Source: a virus
IMG/VR virus record: IMGVR_UViG_3300020129_000509
Location: 1 to 20,405 of that record
Direction: 5' to 3' (one strand)
DNA: 20,405 nt
A model generated the notes under the pieces. It searched no databases. It was not told the DNA's origin and saw only the letters and a program-made list of their open reading frames with translations. Below, piece by piece: positions 6,387-20,299 of the stretch. The position numbers and the translations under genes are program-made. Position 1 is the first letter of the stretch, and the number at the start of each line of letters is the position of its first letter.

Positions 6387-6703
6387 GCCGCTTTGAGATT
6401 GTCCAGGACCGATGCCCGATAGATGTCCTGCACCTGGGAGCTCAGATGACGCATTGTCCAGACGCGCGGGGGGTTGTCCGCGGTCTCGTGATCGTGGCTG
6501 TAGCGCCGCGGATTGCCGCGGTGCTTCACCAGGCCGGAATCGTCCGAGACATTCGAGAGGATGATCCTCACGATCTTGCCGTCTTTTCGCCGGCGCACCG
6601 GCGTGGCATTGCCGCCGGCTGCGAGGCGTTTGGCCCGCACCTGGTCGGCCAGCTCGATCACGCGATCGTTTGATCCGATGACCATCACGCGATCGGTGTT
6701 CAT
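6383..6703 (-). CDS. Phage protein of unknown function (106 aa)
   Basis: 106 aa, with ATG overlapping the Gam-like gene stop as ATGA and its own stop overlapping the next GTG. The N-terminal half has VMVIGSNDRVIELADQVRAK and a basic stretch (ATPVRRRKDGKIVRIIL). The middle is rich in Ser, Asp and His (GNPRRYSHDHETADNPPRVW). The C-terminus is a helix, HLSSQVQDIYRASVLDNLKAA. No domain recognised. Its place right after Gam suggests DNA metabolism. That is weak inference. Confidence 0.75.
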   Translation of the reverse strand: MNTDRVMVIGSNDRVIELADQVRAKRLAAGGNATPVRRRKDGKIVRIILSNVSDDSGLVKHRGNPRRYSHDHETADNPPRVWTMRHLSSQVQDIYRASVLDNLKAA

Positions 6704-7200
6704 GCGGCTTGCTTCTCCGCGAGGTCGAGCCGGTTCAGCTCGATGTAAAACGATTCGGTGGCGTCCAGCTTGAGGCCGGCCGCGGCGAGCTGCTCGGCCG
6801 AGAGCTCACGCTTGATCTTCACTTTGTCGATGCCCGGCGGCTTCGGTGCGTGAAAGTATTTCGACTTCCAGAGACGCTTCAGCTTGCCCTCGATCTTCTT
6901 CCAGGTCCATTTCCCATCGAGGGGCACCAGAGCCGGATTCGACGGGGCGCGCATGCCGATGAGGCCGTGAGCAAATTGGAGGCTCTTCTGGCCTTCGGGC
7001 GGATGCTCGGTGTAATACTCCTCGAGGGCCCTCTCCGCGGCCGCGATTTCGCGCGCGGTTTCCGCCAGGTCGAACGAGTATCGCGTCTGGATGTTCGCGA
7101 TCTCCGCATCGCGCGCGGCGAGGATAGACTCTTCGGTGACGGTGCTCCGCAACAGCATGCGGAGGGCTTCGTCTGCGTCCGCGGCCGTCGCGAGCTTCAT
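6700..7200 (-). CDS. gam: Mu Gam-like host-nuclease inhibitor
   Basis: 166 aa, against 174 aa for Mu Gam. The layout matches the Gam family: an N-terminal helical hairpin (~20-65, with ESILAARDAEIANIQTRYSF and AETAREIAAAERALEEYYTE), a beta core carrying the G.(I/L).R.PS motif (GLIGMRAPSNPALVPL, 79-94), then a Lys-rich segment (WTWKKIEGKLKRLWKSKYF) and the acidic end FYIELNRLDLAEKQAA. Mu Gam dimers encircle linear DNA ends and block RecBCD-type exonucleases, and are Ku-like. Here it would protect replicating or recombining phage DNA. Start ATG overlaps the KTSC stop (ATGA). Family confidence is good; the nuclease target is inferred. Confidence 0.8.
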   Translation of the reverse strand: MKLATAADADEALRMLLRSTVTEESILAARDAEIANIQTRYSFDLAETAREIAAAERALEEYYTEHPPEGQKSLQFAHGLIGMRAPSNPALVPLDGKWTWKKIEGKLKRLWKSKYFHAPKPPGIDKVKIKRELSAEQLAAAGLKLDATESFYIELNRLDLAEKQAA

Positions 7201-7509: not shown

Positions 7510-7674
7510 TTACGCGGCTTCCGTGGGCGTCTCTAGTACTGCCGTCTCCAGTTTGTCAGCCAGTGCCAATATGTTCTTGGCGCGGTCGCGCAGGTTGCTG
7601 ATTTCAGCCAATATCTGCTGCTGCCTGGTTAATTTCGCCGGCTTGCGAATTATGACTTCCAGGCCTGATTTCAT
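7510..7674 (-). CDS. Small helical phage protein (54 aa), first gene of leftward block
   Basis: ATG at 7674-7672, 54 codons, TAA at 7512-7510. It starts MKSGLEVIIRKPAKLTRQQQ, and almost all the rest is a single predicted amphipathic helix (ILAEISNLRDRAKNILALAD). It begins 33 nt downstream of a plausible leftward promoter (-35 at 7735-7730, -10 at 7712-7707), so it would be the first gene of the leftward operon. There is no clear Shine-Dalgarno sequence. It may be a small regulator or coiled-coil partner protein. No family is recognised. Confidence 0.55.
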   Translation of the reverse strand: MKSGLEVIIRKPAKLTRQQQILAEISNLRDRAKNILALADKLETAVLETPTEAA

Positions 7675-7704
7675 CTGCAGTAAATAGTAATGTGTTTTGC
7701 CGAA

Positions 7705-7745
7705 CGATACAATATCGTAAATCTACTGTAGTCAATGGTCTACAG
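7705..7745 (-). promoter_or_regulatory. Leftward promoter with two dyads; divergent control region
   Basis: On the minus strand TTGACT (7735-7730) and TTGTAT (7712-7707) are spaced 17 bp, a plausible sigma-70 type promoter for the 7674 gene. Two dyads overlap it: CTGTAG at 7726-7731 with CTACAG at 7740-7745 (8-nt spacer), straddling the -35; and CGATA-CAA-TATCG at 7705-7717, covering the -10. Such placement is typical of repressor or activator operators. The divergent LuxR-type gene starts 30 bp to the right and may regulate this site and itself. The -10 is weak (3/6), so an activator is plausible. Confidence 0.55.
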
Positions 7746-7774
7746 AAAAGAAGTGCTAGTGCCGGTTCAGAGAC

Positions 7775-8538: not shown

Positions 8539-9492
8539 TCACAGATCGAGCAGGGCCACCGCGGAGTGGAAGACGTCGCGCCGGCGGAAGTACGCCGCGA
8601 GCGAGCGCCGGTCGTGGTGCAGAGTCTGCGCCATGATCAGCAGCTCGTCGATGTCCTGCTCGACGGCCGCGGTCACCATGCCGGAACGCAATGAGTGGCC
8701 CGAGTATTTCTCGGACTCGAGTCCGATCCTTGCTACCGCGTGCTGCACGATCTGGCCGATGCGCTCCGCCTCGAGCGGGATGTGGCGCCGGGCGATCCGG
8801 CCGAACCGCGTGAAGACGGGCCCCGCGTATGCTCCGCGGCGCGCCATCCAGTCGCGCAGCGCCGTTACCGGACAGGTTTCGGGATGGCGGCCATGAGGCA
8901 GTCCCAGCGTGGCGCCGCGGCCCTCCTGATCCGTCTTCGACCTGCGTATCTGAAGCTTCACTCCCTTCTCGCAAAACTCCACATCCGCCATCGTCAAGCA
9001 GGCGAGGTTCGCACTCCGCAATGCGCTCGCGAATCCGACAACGAGAATGGCGCGATCGCGAATCGACATGGGCGTGTCCTCCTCGACGAGCAGGCGCGCG
9101 ATCGAGCGCAGCTCCTCGATCGACAATGGGCAGACACGGTGGACGTCCTCGATACGGGTGTGGTCTCGTTTCGCGCCGCGGAGCAGCATCCGGACGTCCG
9201 CCGTGACGGGCGAGGGGAGATCGTTCGCGCGGTGGATGTGCGCGATCGCAGCCAGGCGCCGCGTGACGGTCGACACCTTGAGGCCGTCGCTCAATTGCGA
9301 GGCGACGTAGAGTCCGACGGTGTCGCTCGACGCCGGCAGTGGAGCTCGTCCCAGACGGTTGCACCACGTCGCGAACTGCTTGCAGTCGTAGTCGTAGCCT
9401 CTAATGGTGTTCGCTGCGATGAGAATCTTTGCGAGCCGGGATTGCTCGGCCCGCAGACGCGCCATAAGGGCGCTAGAATCCGGATCAGCCAT
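8539..9492 (-). CDS. int: Tyrosine recombinase / phage integrase
   Basis: 317 aa. The N-terminal SAM-like core-binding domain (~20-105) includes NTIRGYDYDCKQFATWC. The C-terminal catalytic domain carries all expected residues: Arg159 in SALRSANL, Lys186 in RRSKTDQE, His266 and Arg269 in GHSLRSG, His292/293 in TLHHDRRS and the nucleophile Tyr301 in AAYFRR. It should catalyse site-specific integration and excision through a covalent 3'-phosphotyrosine. Length fits integrases without a long arm-binding domain. GGGAG lies 7 bases before the ATG. That ribosome-binding site falls in a small hairpin (CAGCT at 9495-9499 with AGCTG at 9506-9510), which could lower translation. Confidence 0.95.
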   Translation of the reverse strand: MADPDSSALMARLRAEQSRLAKILIAANTIRGYDYDCKQFATWCNRLGRAPLPASSDTVGLYVASQLSDGLKVSTVTRRLAAIAHIHRANDLPSPVTADVRMLLRGAKRDHTRIEDVHRVCPLSIEELRSIARLLVEEDTPMSIRDRAILVVGFASALRSANLACLTMADVEFCEKGVKLQIRRSKTDQEGRGATLGLPHGRHPETCPVTALRDWMARRGAYAGPVFTRFGRIARRHIPLEAERIGQIVQHAVARIGLESEKYSGHSLRSGMVTAAVEQDIDELLIMAQTLHHDRRSLAAYFRRRDVFHSAVALLDL

Positions 9493-9875: not shown

Positions 9876-10067
9876 ATGTTGTCCAAAAGTGTGACCAAGA
9901 CAGTCAGACGTAACGCAACCTGCGCCGAATGCCAGCGAGCGTTCTTGAATCCATCACAGTATCGTTACGAGAACGGCCGGCCGGTGTGCCGTGCCACCAA
10001 GGAATGCGTGCAGCGGAGCCATGCCAAATATCGACGCCTTACGCAGGGCGCGGGAGGTGGCCGATGA
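9876..10067 (+). CDS. Small zinc-finger phage protein
   Basis: 63 aa, with AGGAG six bases before the ATG. Basic N-terminus, then a four-Cys pattern: CAEC at residues 16-19, then Cys38 and Cys44 (PVCRATKECVQRSHAKYRR). The spacing suggests one zinc site similar to small treble-clef or FCS-like fingers, followed by a basic tail, so nucleic-acid binding is likely. Its TGA overlaps the next gene's ATG (ATGA), so it is probably co-translated with the initiator-like gene. Exact family not recognised. Confidence 0.72.
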   Translation: MLSKSVTKTVRRNATCAECQRAFLNPSQYRYENGRPVCRATKECVQRSHAKYRRLTQGAGGGR

Positions 10068-11260
10068 GGACCGACAAGAATAAAGAGCTAATGCTCGCCG
10101 CCGGATCGAAAACGGGAGCGTATGACGTCGAAGCGCCCGACCAGTGGAAGTGGGTTCTCCGCCACGGGGAGCGCACCGAAAAGGGGATGGCCTGGGTTAA
10201 ATCGAAGACCACGGCCTTCAACCATGAATCGCCGTTCTGCGTCGACGAGCACGGCAACGCACTATACGCCTCGCATATGGCGGTGGAGTGTGGATGGGAG
10301 GAACAGACCGCAAGAAATGTCCTGGCGGAACTGCAGTCACAGGGGAGGGTGCGGCTCGACGAGAGCAGGCAGGCTAAAACCGGGAAGCGAATCTGGTACT
10401 GCGCCGATGTTCCCCAAGCCTACGAAAAGGACGGTCTAAAAAACGAATCTCACAACTCTGTACATAGTTGTGAGACCACTTATGTTGTTGATTTTATTGA
10501 AAGCCTCCCTGACGAAAAACGGGCCACCGCGAAGCTCAAACTGGAAGCCTGTTTCCACTGGAAACGTGAGTTCATCGCTGACGGGATGGCGGCGCTTCGT
10601 GCCATAGCTGATCGAGTCGAAGATAACACACTGCGCGAGATCGGTATACCAAAAAAGCGTCTGCCGAAGCGGCGCCCGGCAAAATGTAAATGGGTCCAGC
10701 TCAGCCTGCTCGCCGAGCCTGACTTTGTACAAAGTTGCGAGATCCAGTCTGTACAAACCGCGGATTCGGGTTCGTACAAACCGAAAACCGAGACCGTACA
10801 AAGTAAAAATGGCGGCGCATCCTTTAGTGTTTCAACCACAACCACAACACAGCTAGCTAGCGAGTCCGCTCCAGGGGCGGAAGACGTCGCCGAGCTGCAG
10901 CAGTTCCTTCACGATGTGGCAGCTAAACGCTTCCCTCGATTGAAGCCTCCGACCCCCAACAAGCAGACCTGCATTAACCTCCTGCGGATGGCACGGGCGA
11001 AGAAACCGGACGCAGTCTCGATCGAGATCGCGGAGGCTGTCGCCAGCTTTGCAGCCAAAAACACTGGCTTCGAAACCTGGGGAGGTGTGGTCGACCTGTT
11101 AAGGAAGAGCTGGAGTAACGGGGAAGACCGTGCGGCGCCGGCAGTGGGAGCCCCGAAGTGCTGGAGTTGTGGGAAGCCAATCACGGGCACCGCGATTAAT
11201 GGCGCCTGCTTTGACTGTATCGAGGCTAGACGATCACAGATTGCGGGAGGCGGCGACTGA
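10064..11260 (+). CDS. Replication-initiator-like protein with internal iterons
   Basis: 398 aa from the ATG overlapping the upstream stop (ATGA). Residues ~43-115 look like a winged helix (ASHMAVECGWEEQTARNVLA then ELQSQGRVRLDES, with a hairpin wing before ADVP). A basic helical middle follows (~150-210). Residues 215-270 are a Ser/Thr/Gln-rich linker with FVQSCE, SVQT, SYKP and TVQSK. The helical segment 273-350 resembles C-terminal phage replication regions. A zinc ribbon closes it: CWSC at 367-370 and CFDC at 382-385. The architecture plus the DNA repeats in the linker coding region resemble lambda O and related initiators, which bind iterons inside their own gene. The initiator role is inferred; a plain DNA-binding phage protein is the alternative. 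The middle is AT-richer than its surroundings. Confidence 0.7.
   Translation: MRTDKNKELMLAAGSKTGAYDVEAPDQWKWVLRHGERTEKGMAWVKSKTTAFNHESPFCVDEHGNALYASHMAVECGWEEQTARNVLAELQSQGRVRLDESRQAKTGKRIWYCADVPQAYEKDGLKNESHNSVHSCETTYVVDFIESLPDEKRATAKLKLEACFHWKREFIADGMAALRAIADRVEDNTLREIGIPKKRLPKRRPAKCKWVQLSLLAEPDFVQSCEIQSVQTADSGSYKPKTETVQSKNGGASFSVSTTTTTQLASESAPGAEDVAELQQFLHDVAAKRFPRLKPPTPNKQTCINLLRMARAKKPDAVSIEIAEAVASFAAKNTGFETWGGVVDLLRKSWSNGEDRAAPAVGAPKCWSCGKPITGTAINGACFDCIEARRSQIAGGGD
10448..10475. promoter_or_regulatory. 28-bp near-perfect palindrome inside the initiator-like gene
   Basis: Arms TCTCACAACT (10448-10457) and AGTTGTGAGA (10466-10475) are exact reverse complements around an 8-nt centre that contains TGTACA. 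Thirteen of 14 base pairs match. Its right half, TGTACA.AGTTG.GAGA, recurs at 10727-10742 in the iteron cluster. It sits about 265 bp upstream of the cluster, within codons 129-138. It may be a high-affinity dimer site for the same protein, for autoregulation or looping. Confidence 0.6.
10722..10804. repeat. Iteron-like direct repeats (GTACAAA), candidate replication origin
   Basis: GTACAAA occurs four times, with the GTAC at 10727, 10751, 10774 and 10796, so spacing is 24, 23 and 22 bp, close to two helical turns. The first copy is embedded in the perfect 14-bp palindrome ACTTTGTACAAAGT (10722-10735). Flanks are partly conserved: a pyrimidine pair on the left, and AG or CC on the right. Downstream (10803-10860) is an A/T- and CA-rich stretch that could be a DNA-unwinding element. 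The repeats encode the low-complexity VQS/VQT linker. Position inside an initiator-like gene matches lambda-type origins. Confidence 0.65.
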
Positions 11261-11265
11261 ATATG

Positions 11266-11778
11266 CTACTCGCGCCCATGTTCAGCAAAGACACCCGCGG
11301 CCCACTCCTTCTGGTCGTCGTCACCGAAACGTTCCGCGTCACGCGCAAACGCCCGAATCAGGCAGAGGCGATGCCAGCGGAATATTCTGTGCTCGTCGGA
11401 GGTGGAAGGCTTACGGCAAGCTGGACAAGCCCCGGGTCCCAAAATGAGGCGACGGAGGACCTTTACAGCAAGCCCCTGATCATCAAAATCCGGCATTGGC
11501 ATACTCATAGCCTCGCCGCCCTGCACTGCGTAGGGGTACCAGTTGCCCCAGGACTTCCGCAGCAGGCAGAGTTCGACGCGAGTTTTAAGGGGAAAGCTTT
11601 GGTCTCCCATGACGAGGTCGAGAGCTCTATCGAGCGCCGGTGTGAAATTAAAGCCCGGGTTCTCCTGGCCGTATTCCCAAAACTTGTCCAGCGCATCGGC
11701 GTCAGTCCCCGGCGTATCGACCGCCGCGCGGTTCGTTCCCCTAGCTCTATGCGGCGACTTCGGCTTCTTGAATCTCAC
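11266..11778 (-). CDS. Phage protein with Cys pair, opposite strand, unknown
   Basis: 170 aa from a GTG with GGGGAT upstream. It runs opposite to the replication genes and ends only 5 nt from the end of the initiator-like gene. N-terminus is basic (MRFKKPKSPHRARG). The core has LDKFWEYGQENPGFNFTPAL and TRVELCLLRKSWGNWYPYAV. A CPAC pair at ~residues 119-122 is followed by HRIFRWHRLCLIRAFARDAE, so a zinc site is possible. No family recognised. Trp/Tyr-rich conserved-looking segments make it better supported than the antisense frame. The lone leftward orientation hints at separate regulation. Confidence 0.62.
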   Translation of the reverse strand: MRFKKPKSPHRARGTNRAAVDTPGTDADALDKFWEYGQENPGFNFTPALDRALDLVMGDQSFPLKTRVELCLLRKSWGNWYPYAVQGGEAMSMPMPDFDDQGLAVKVLRRLILGPGACPACRKPSTSDEHRIFRWHRLCLIRAFARDAERFGDDDQKEWAAGVFAEHGRE

Positions 11779-11893
11779 GAGCTGATCCCCCTATCAAGGC
11801 TTGCGGGAGGGGCGGCAGTGATAGGCAACCGTCCCAGCCCGCAAAAGATACCGGGAGCGACCCGGCAGTTCTCAATTCTACAGGAGCGACTTC

Positions 11894-12133
11894 ATGATCA
11901 GCGAAGCTGAACTGATCGAGATTGAGGGCCGTGTGCTCGAGCTGTACAAGAGGCTCCGGGATATGGAAATGGGGTCGAGGGTGCGGCACGAGCTGCCTGT
12001 GACGGAGGCTGCGCGATTACGCCAGGTGATTGCTGATGTCCGCGTGTTGATACCTACTCTCATGGAAGACATCGATCGGCTGGTGGAACAGGCGAGGCGC
12101 AGCCGGCCGAAGGTGATGGGAGCGGGCGAATGA
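11894..12133 (+). CDS. Small helical phage protein (79 aa)
   Basis: 79 aa with AGGAG (11882-11886) seven bases before the ATG. Nearly all helical: SEAELIEIEGRVLELYKRLR, then VTEAARLRQVIADVRVLIPT and a final coiled-coil-like segment ending in basic residues. It opens a rightward run of four genes; its TGA overlaps the next ATG (ATGA). Unknown function. Confidence 0.78.
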   Translation: MISEAELIEIEGRVLELYKRLRDMEMGSRVRHELPVTEAARLRQVIADVRVLIPTLMEDIDRLVEQARRSRPKVMGAGE

Positions 12134-19705: not shown

Positions 19706-20299
19706 CTACGTTTTCTGTACACCCGAAAGCGCCAGCCGGATGGTCGAATGCGGCACACCGAGCTCCCGCGCGATCGCCCTCCAACTCATTCCCTGGGTCC
19801 GCAGCTCGAGCGCGCGATCGCGCCGGAAGACCTTCACCGGGCGCCCGCCGCATCTCCCCTGTTTCTTCGCTCGCGCCAGGCCGGCCTTCGTCCGCTCGCT
19901 GATTCGCAGCCGTTCCTGCTTCGCGATCCAGGCCGCGATCGCCAGCATCAACTCGCCGGCCGGTCCCGTTGTCCGGAAGTGCGCCTCGCTGTAGCTTTCG
20001 AACTGGACGCCGTACTTCGTTAGGTCGCGAATGTATTCGAAGGTCTCGAGCACCCCTTCCCTGGTGAATCGATCGAGCGCCCAGACGAGGACGACGTCGA
20101 ACTTCCGTTTGGAGGCGTCCGCGAACAAACGCTTGAAGTTTTCCCGATCGCCGCTCTTGCCGCTGACGTGGTCGATGTACTCCTCTGTGACCGTCCAGTT
20201 GGCCCGGGCGCAGTAATCGCGCAACTGTAGAAGCTGGTTCTCGGTGTCTTGCCCTTTGTCCTTCGTCGACACGCGGGCGTAAATCGCTACTGTTGTCAT
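19706..20299 (-). CDS. Serine recombinase, resolvase/invertase family
   Basis: 197 aa, typical of small resolvases (~180-200). Nucleophile Ser11 in IYARVST, with Arg9. Also VVLVWALDRFTR (69-80), the helix E segment (ELMLAIAAWIAKQERLRISE) and a basic linker. A C-terminal helix-turn-helix (SWRAIARELGVPHSTIRLAL, 172-191) follows. All catalytic residues appear intact. It would cut and rejoin DNA at a short site with a two-base core, for multimer resolution or inversion. ATG 20299 has GGGAA nine bases upstream. It is distinct from the tyrosine integrase 11 kb away. Confidence 0.93.
   Translation of the reverse strand: MTTVAIYARVSTKDKGQDTENQLLQLRDYCARANWTVTEEYIDHVSGKSGDRENFKRLFADASKRKFDVVLVWALDRFTREGVLETFEYIRDLTKYGVQFESYSEAHFRTTGPAGELMLAIAAWIAKQERLRISERTKAGLARAKKQGRCGGRPVKVFRRDRALELRTQGMSWRAIARELGVPHSTIRLALSGVQKT

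Follow-up and report, generated by a model that had tools for sequence, protein, structure and literature searches.

Positions 10722-10851 of the window (the whole 20,405-bp stretch of viral DNA analysed here) are, with a probability of about 0.83 as judged from sequence, the core of an intragenic iteron origin of the lambda-O/RepA_N style, carried inside a candidate initiator gene. The GTACAAA copies in this core are candidate binding sites, very probably of the protein that the gene encodes. A preliminary description had already placed the phage origin in an initiator-like gene, and three lines of evidence support that placement: i) a codon test that separates DNA-level from protein-level constraint; ii) the occurrence of GTACAAA arrays in or beside phage initiator genes; and iii) the presence of linker arrays in initiator genes that were sampled by their N-terminus.

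The GTACAAA array

On the + strand GTACAAA occurs at 10727, 10751, 10774 and 10796, with spacings of 24, 23 and 22 bp and a span of 76 bp, and at no further position on that strand of the window. Both strands together hold five matches against 0.43 expected, a number reached in 0 of 100 shuffled windows. The fifth match, on the - strand at 10724, is the other half of a 14-bp palindrome around the first iteron. No second GTACAAA array is present elsewhere in the 20,405-bp IMG/VR record. The four repeats with their spacing, the perfect palindrome around the first of them and the lack of a similarly spaced copy had all been reported in the preliminary description, and the motif scan reproduces them. 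The features of the array are:

10722-10735: perfect 14-bp palindrome, ACTTTGTACAAAGT, holding iteron 1; 7/7 pairs
10727-10733, + strand: iteron 1, GTACAAA, coding for VQS; 7/7 pairs about GT^AC
10751-10757, + strand: iteron 2, GTACAAA, coding for VQT; 5/7 pairs about GT^AC
10774-10780, + strand: iteron 3, GTACAAA, coding for SYK in another frame; 6/7 pairs about GT^AC
10796-10802, + strand: iteron 4, GTACAAA, coding for VQS; 3/7 pairs about GT^AC

Iterons 1 to 3 are thus dyads about GT^AC, and iteron 4 is weaker. A second GTAC arm past the A-tract matches at 2-3 of 4 positions at best, which is the chance level. The array uses two reading frames and lies, as first described, in the S/T/Q-rich linker-coding part of the open reading frame 10064-11260. 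DnaA boxes are at chance level, no Rfam structured RNA family is matched, and no promoter-like site near the array rises above chance.

Selection on the DNA

In this phage GTA makes up 9.5% of Val codons and CAA 14% of Gln codons. All three VQ pairs in the array are encoded by the rare GTA CAA, and the one remaining VQ pair of the protein by GTC CAG. Multiplying the codon probabilities for the given amino acid sequence yields 1.8e-8; when the linker codons were resampled in 200,000 trials, three copies of the motif appeared in 2 trials and four copies in 0. The codon choice shows that selection acts at the DNA level on the array. Taken together, the rare codons, the use of two frames and the resampling test mean that the repeats are DNA words and not a protein repeat.

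The candidate initiator

The array-bearing gene looks like that of a winged-helix phage initiator, although its sequence support is weak. Its recognizable or predicted parts are:

10064-11260, + strand: candidate replication initiator gene, 398 aa; open frame, a farther upstream start being possible in the same ORF
10256-10408, + strand: predicted winged-helix DNA-binding segment, aa ~65-115; from two low-confidence AlphaFold2 models and Foldseek
10877-11116, + strand: predicted all-helical C-terminal domain, aa ~272-351, presumed to contact the helicase or loader; from a low-confidence model
11159-11218, + strand: CWSC...CFDC, a possible C-terminal zinc ribbon; from sequence and a weak HscB_4_cys match (E 0.04)

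A 48-residue stretch (aa 70-117) gives a weak match to PHROG 428, "replication initiation protein", with an E value of 0.033 for the full-length protein and 0.016 for aa 1-221. The single-sequence AlphaFold2 models are of low confidence (pLDDT 38 and 58) and show a helix-helix-strand-strand order at aa ~69-113; the full-length model (pLDDT 38) was discarded as unusable. In Foldseek searches the 86-residue piece (pLDDT 58) retrieved winged helices with probabilities up to 0.97 and E values of 0.23 or worse (also given as 0.2), TubR and AspA being among the weak PDB fold matches. Against BFVD the top two entries were both named "Replisome organizer" (E 0.035 and 0.040). The earlier assignment as a winged-helix protein is thus weakly supported and stays a prediction.

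Other searches gave little. The window protein had no Phage_rep_O, RepA_N or Rep3_N match in a Pfam scan to E 0.1, no tblastn match in phages at E 0.01, and no relative among solved structures; hhalign against two initiator families was negative, with probabilities of 2.7% and 0.3%. Close homologues comprised one near-identical IMG/VR contig and none in genome contigs, phages or plasmids. That contig (L004) has the same array but, being 99.92% identical, adds no independent evidence. We would not file the 398-aa product in a family by its sequence. No helicase or helicase loader was recognized among the window ORFs scanned.

Elements flanking the array

Three further elements of the gene lie upstream or downstream of the iterons:

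10420-10519: second least stable 100 bp of the window, a candidate unwinding element; nearest-neighbour stability z 4.2
10448-10475: 28-bp palindrome, 13/14 pairs, GTAC-centred; candidate extra initiator site or minus-strand terminator stem
10833-10851, + strand: CAACCACAACCACAACACA, a 19-nt A/C-only tract coding for Thr-rich linker; candidate opening or loading tract

The 28-bp palindrome, absent like its unstable flank from the preliminary description, is the sole palindrome of its kind in the window, and 0 of 60 Markov windows had one. Its centre is TGTACA, and TGTACA.AGTTG.GAG is common to it and iteron 1. It falls inside the unstable segment 10420-10519, about 200-300 bp upstream of the iterons; near the array itself, the best 100 bp for instability starts at 10715 (z 2.3). 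Read on the - strand, 10446-10477 is a terminator-like hairpin: a stem, an 8-nt loop and then a T-run. An antisense transcript would end there, inside the initiator gene. It is conceivable, at slightly under even odds, that the iterons are the initiator sites and 10448-10475 is an antisense intrinsic terminator and not part of the origin, a refinement that is compatible with the origin reading. The stem, loop and T-run agree with this, as does the predicted RNA fold of -15.4 kcal/mol (z -3.1). A terminator, however, has no need of a TGTACA centre or of bases common to iteron 1, and terminator-like sites in the region are at the chance level (4 versus 3.0 expected).

Downstream of the iterons the preliminary description had noted an A/T- and CA-rich tract. 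That stretch is not markedly unstable, 100-bp windows starting at 10800-10830 being of ordinary stability (z 0.3-0.9). Its unusual feature is the tract at 10833-10851: nowhere else in the window, on either strand, do 14 or more consecutive bases consist of A and C only. The tract may be the site of helix opening or helicase loading. An A-rich, T-poor strand-biased tract also follows the array in lambda O.

GTACAAA arrays in other phages

Viral contigs were searched with the pattern GTACAAA-N13-19-GTACAAA-N13-19-GTACAAA. It matched at least 119 stretches, 84 being non-redundant among the matches listed; these 84 include a near-identical copy of the window (L034), which was omitted from the scan of neighbours. 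The commonest PHROG classes among 130 ORFs at or beside the 84 arrays were 678 (O-like initiation), 428 and 270 (initiation proteins), with 12 matches each, and 186 (DnaD-like loaders), with 10, the sets overlapping. By Pfam, five of the 130 were Rep_3 initiators. One array elsewhere has TubZ as a neighbour, and some matches, in AT-rich phages, plainly arose by chance or from coding repeats. The working control was the reversed motif AAACATG: an initiator-type neighbour was found at about 1/20 loci, and 8 non-redundant tight arrays were present.

Fourteen initiator genes with GTACAAA arrays all carry the motif on the coding strand. Jointly they use all three frames (VQx, xTN/xTK and xYK), and most mix frames. 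The spacing run of 24, 23, 22 seen in the window recurs in L076, whose initiator is unrelated. Many GTACAAA phages (L024, L117 and others) have a second half-site across the A-tract. The pattern was absent from 398 genomes of one bacterial phylum, and no 7-mer array of this kind was found in TP901-1 rep.

GATCAAA had been considered as a negative control and was rejected, since 16 of 66 neighbouring ORFs match PHROG 428 and 14 match PHROG 678: it is another iteron of the same kind of initiator gene. At the tight 22-24 bp spacing GTACAAA has 76 stretches and GATCAAA 54 (50 versus 37 non-redundant); as GATCAAA is itself a phage-initiator iteron, an argument from raw counts was dropped in favor of gene context. 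The GATCAAA iterons of the initiator genes in L260, L264, L268, L285, L302 and L308 contain GATC, the Dam methylation site. Methylation may control the origin in these GATCAAA phages, though not in the window.

Initiator families sampled by N-terminus

Two families were gathered by the N-terminal domain only, A5 (80 loci, 37 non-redundant) and A3 (79 loci, 56 non-redundant). The seed proteins had come to attention via their arrays; the collected loci had not. Six-mers recurring at 21-24 bp are present in the linker of 36/37 A5 genes and 44/51 A3 genes. The same test gave 7/37 (A5) and 7/54 (A3) for the N-terminal domain; for the part past the linker the counts were 12/36 and 8/47, respectively. 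Lag 12 and its multiples are dominant too among the A3 genes, and this 12-bp signal is partly codon-periodic.

The iteron cores vary among phages in both families. In A5 they consist of arms converging on AAAAT, for example GATC-AAAAT-GATC, GCTC-AAAAT-GAGC and ACCC-AAAAT-GGGT, and the iterons annotated in lambda are of the same arm style (PMC6022878, PMC7466680). Arm pairs in A5 match at 2.93 of 4 positions versus 2.02 when partners are shuffled among genes (maximum 2.32 in 2000 shuffles), the shuffled value being inflated by arms common to several phages; AAAAT sites that lie outside the linker give 0.95 of 4. In 79/80 A5 loci (L302-L381) a CAGAGACTAC-type repeat lies 3' of the array, at nt ~380-500 of each initiator gene, and codes for PETTTETT or ENTTEITTE whatever the iteron core. 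This conserved repeat may be an origin opening or loading element.

Two spring-water phages, L226 (25597-25630) and L228 (7033-7070), have initiator-like genes that are unrelated and hold linker repeats of their own, AAGTAACGC three times at 12 bp and AAACATAA three times, respectively. These phages share the terminase at about 50% identity; terminase and origin module therefore seem to be exchanged independently.

Comparison with known systems

In lambda ori the iterons lie inside gene O at spacings of 20, 24 and 23 bp (PMC7466680, PMC6022878). As in lambda, the window has four phased direct repeats in the linker, between the parts coding for the DNA-binding and C-terminal domains, and the two share imperfect dyads holding an A-tract; a strand-biased tract follows in both, that of the window being of ordinary stability. 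The lambda iterons are 18-bp hyphenated dyads about the A-tract, whereas those window repeats that form a dyad have it about GT^AC, and the A-tract lies to one side of it. In addition, the window protein has no detected O or Phage_rep_O homology, no P-like gene is recognized in the window, and the strongest unstable segment and the palindrome lie upstream, not downstream.

The Rep protein of pSK41, a RepA_N member, has four Rep boxes at the centre of rep and binds DNA through its N-terminal domain, and the protein can dispense with the linker that the ori encodes (PMC5703833), a fact that accounts for the ability of origins to sit in linkers. The window protein differs in that it has no RepA_N match and its C-terminal part showed no sequence relation in the tests made. 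In SPP1, oriL is contained in gene 38, which encodes the replisome organizer gp38 (PMC6316719); no sequence relation of gp38 to the window protein was detected. Initiators of the PHROG 428/678/6493 type, with GATCAAA and other arrays, resemble the window in having 22-24 bp linker arrays, recurrent CAAA(A) and mixed frames. Their dyad arms flank the A-tract, as in the AAAAT cores above, while the second arm of the window is not above chance. A literature search on GTACAAA iterons returned a single match, the putative origin of the Fusobacterium plasmid pFN3, where TAGTACAAATTTCCC repeats, several at 22-bp intervals, lie beside the replication gene (PMC1924603). Unlike those of the window, they are upstream of the gene and on a plasmid.

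The window array is an ordinary lambda-like arrangement, and most genes sampled in the two initiator families are built alike, with landing-site words that differ by phage.

Mechanism and alternatives

The observed repeats, their phasing, the DNA-level selection and the recurrent link between such arrays and initiator genes suggest a theta-type replication origin whose core, 10722-10851, would lie within the gene for the initiator that acts on it. The four iterons would be bound by the N-terminal winged helix, in the form of a dimer or of paired monomers. As these are about two helical turns apart, the bound protein would lie on one face and the DNA would be wrapped. The resulting strain would open the DNA next to the iterons, in the A/C tract (10833-10851) or in the unstable palindrome region (10420-10520), and the C-terminal domain would recruit the host helicase or its loader. 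The linker would be the stretch that tolerates the residues dictated by the iterons. Lambda O is known to work by binding, wrapping, opening and helicase recruitment, and the outline of this scheme is also established for SPP1 gp38 (PMC7466680, PMC6022878, PMC6316719).

The array could instead be an operator cluster, at which a winged-helix regulator binds within its own gene and blocks transcription while replication starts elsewhere. Many repressors have this fold, palindromic GTAC-centred sites would suit a dimeric one, and the gene holds the 28-bp GTAC palindrome upstream of the array. Such a role is nevertheless improbable: arrays in initiator genes have the same linker position, 22-24 bp phasing and coding-strand orientation, replication initiators are among the weak family and fold matches, and promoter-like sites near the array are at the chance level. 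Less probable still is that the array serves partition, as a centromere-like site for a winged-helix protein of the TubR/ParR type. Partition sites are also iteron arrays, and the TubR and AspA fold matches and the TubZ gene beside one GTACAAA array point in that direction, but no ParA, ParM, TubZ or AspA partner was recognized among the window ORFs scanned, and a 398-aa protein with a linker and a C-terminal domain is unlike the short TubR and ParR. That the repeats are a by-product of a repetitive, low-complexity VQ/YK linker that they encode, with no role as DNA, is scarcely credible, as the spacing is not a multiple of three throughout, the frame shifts between copies, and the codon test contradicts it with rare codons placed exactly at the repeats.

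Other features of the window

Stability over 100 bp is lowest in the window at 7649-7750 (z 4.7), where the inverted repeat CTGTAG/CTACAG occurs. The genes on its two sides diverge, an operon that includes a Mu Gam-like protein being on the - strand and a LuxR-type HTH gene on the + strand, and the segment looks like a divergent promoter/operator. Just past the initiator gene, two long ORFs, 11263-11910 (+) and 11266-11778 (-), lie on opposite strands with almost complete overlap; no family was matched by either. The same small genome fragment holds a Mu Gam-like end-protection protein (6700-7200, -), a tyrosine integrase (8539-9492, -) and a serine resolvase/invertase (19706-20299, -).

Implications

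The wider pattern is more interesting than the window array itself. There is an even chance that winged-helix phage initiators share one origin format: phased linker iterons, with a constant A-tract and with self-complementary arms that vary from phage to phage, and after them a conserved strand-biased tract. Initiator and cognate origin would then form one inseparable, diversifying cassette that can be read from sequence, and the window would be an outlying GTAC-centred version from an initiator lineage with no detectable relatives. A statement of this pattern, one format with diversifying arms, was not found in the literature searched, which was covered in part.

For the window, the analysis points to a likely location of the replication origin in a phage that is uncultured and has an initiator barely recognizable by sequence. 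The combination of a linker array with a codon-choice test may find origins and initiators in phages that have no annotation. With closely related initiators that differ in their iteron arms, the code by which a winged helix recognizes its iteron can be tested directly.
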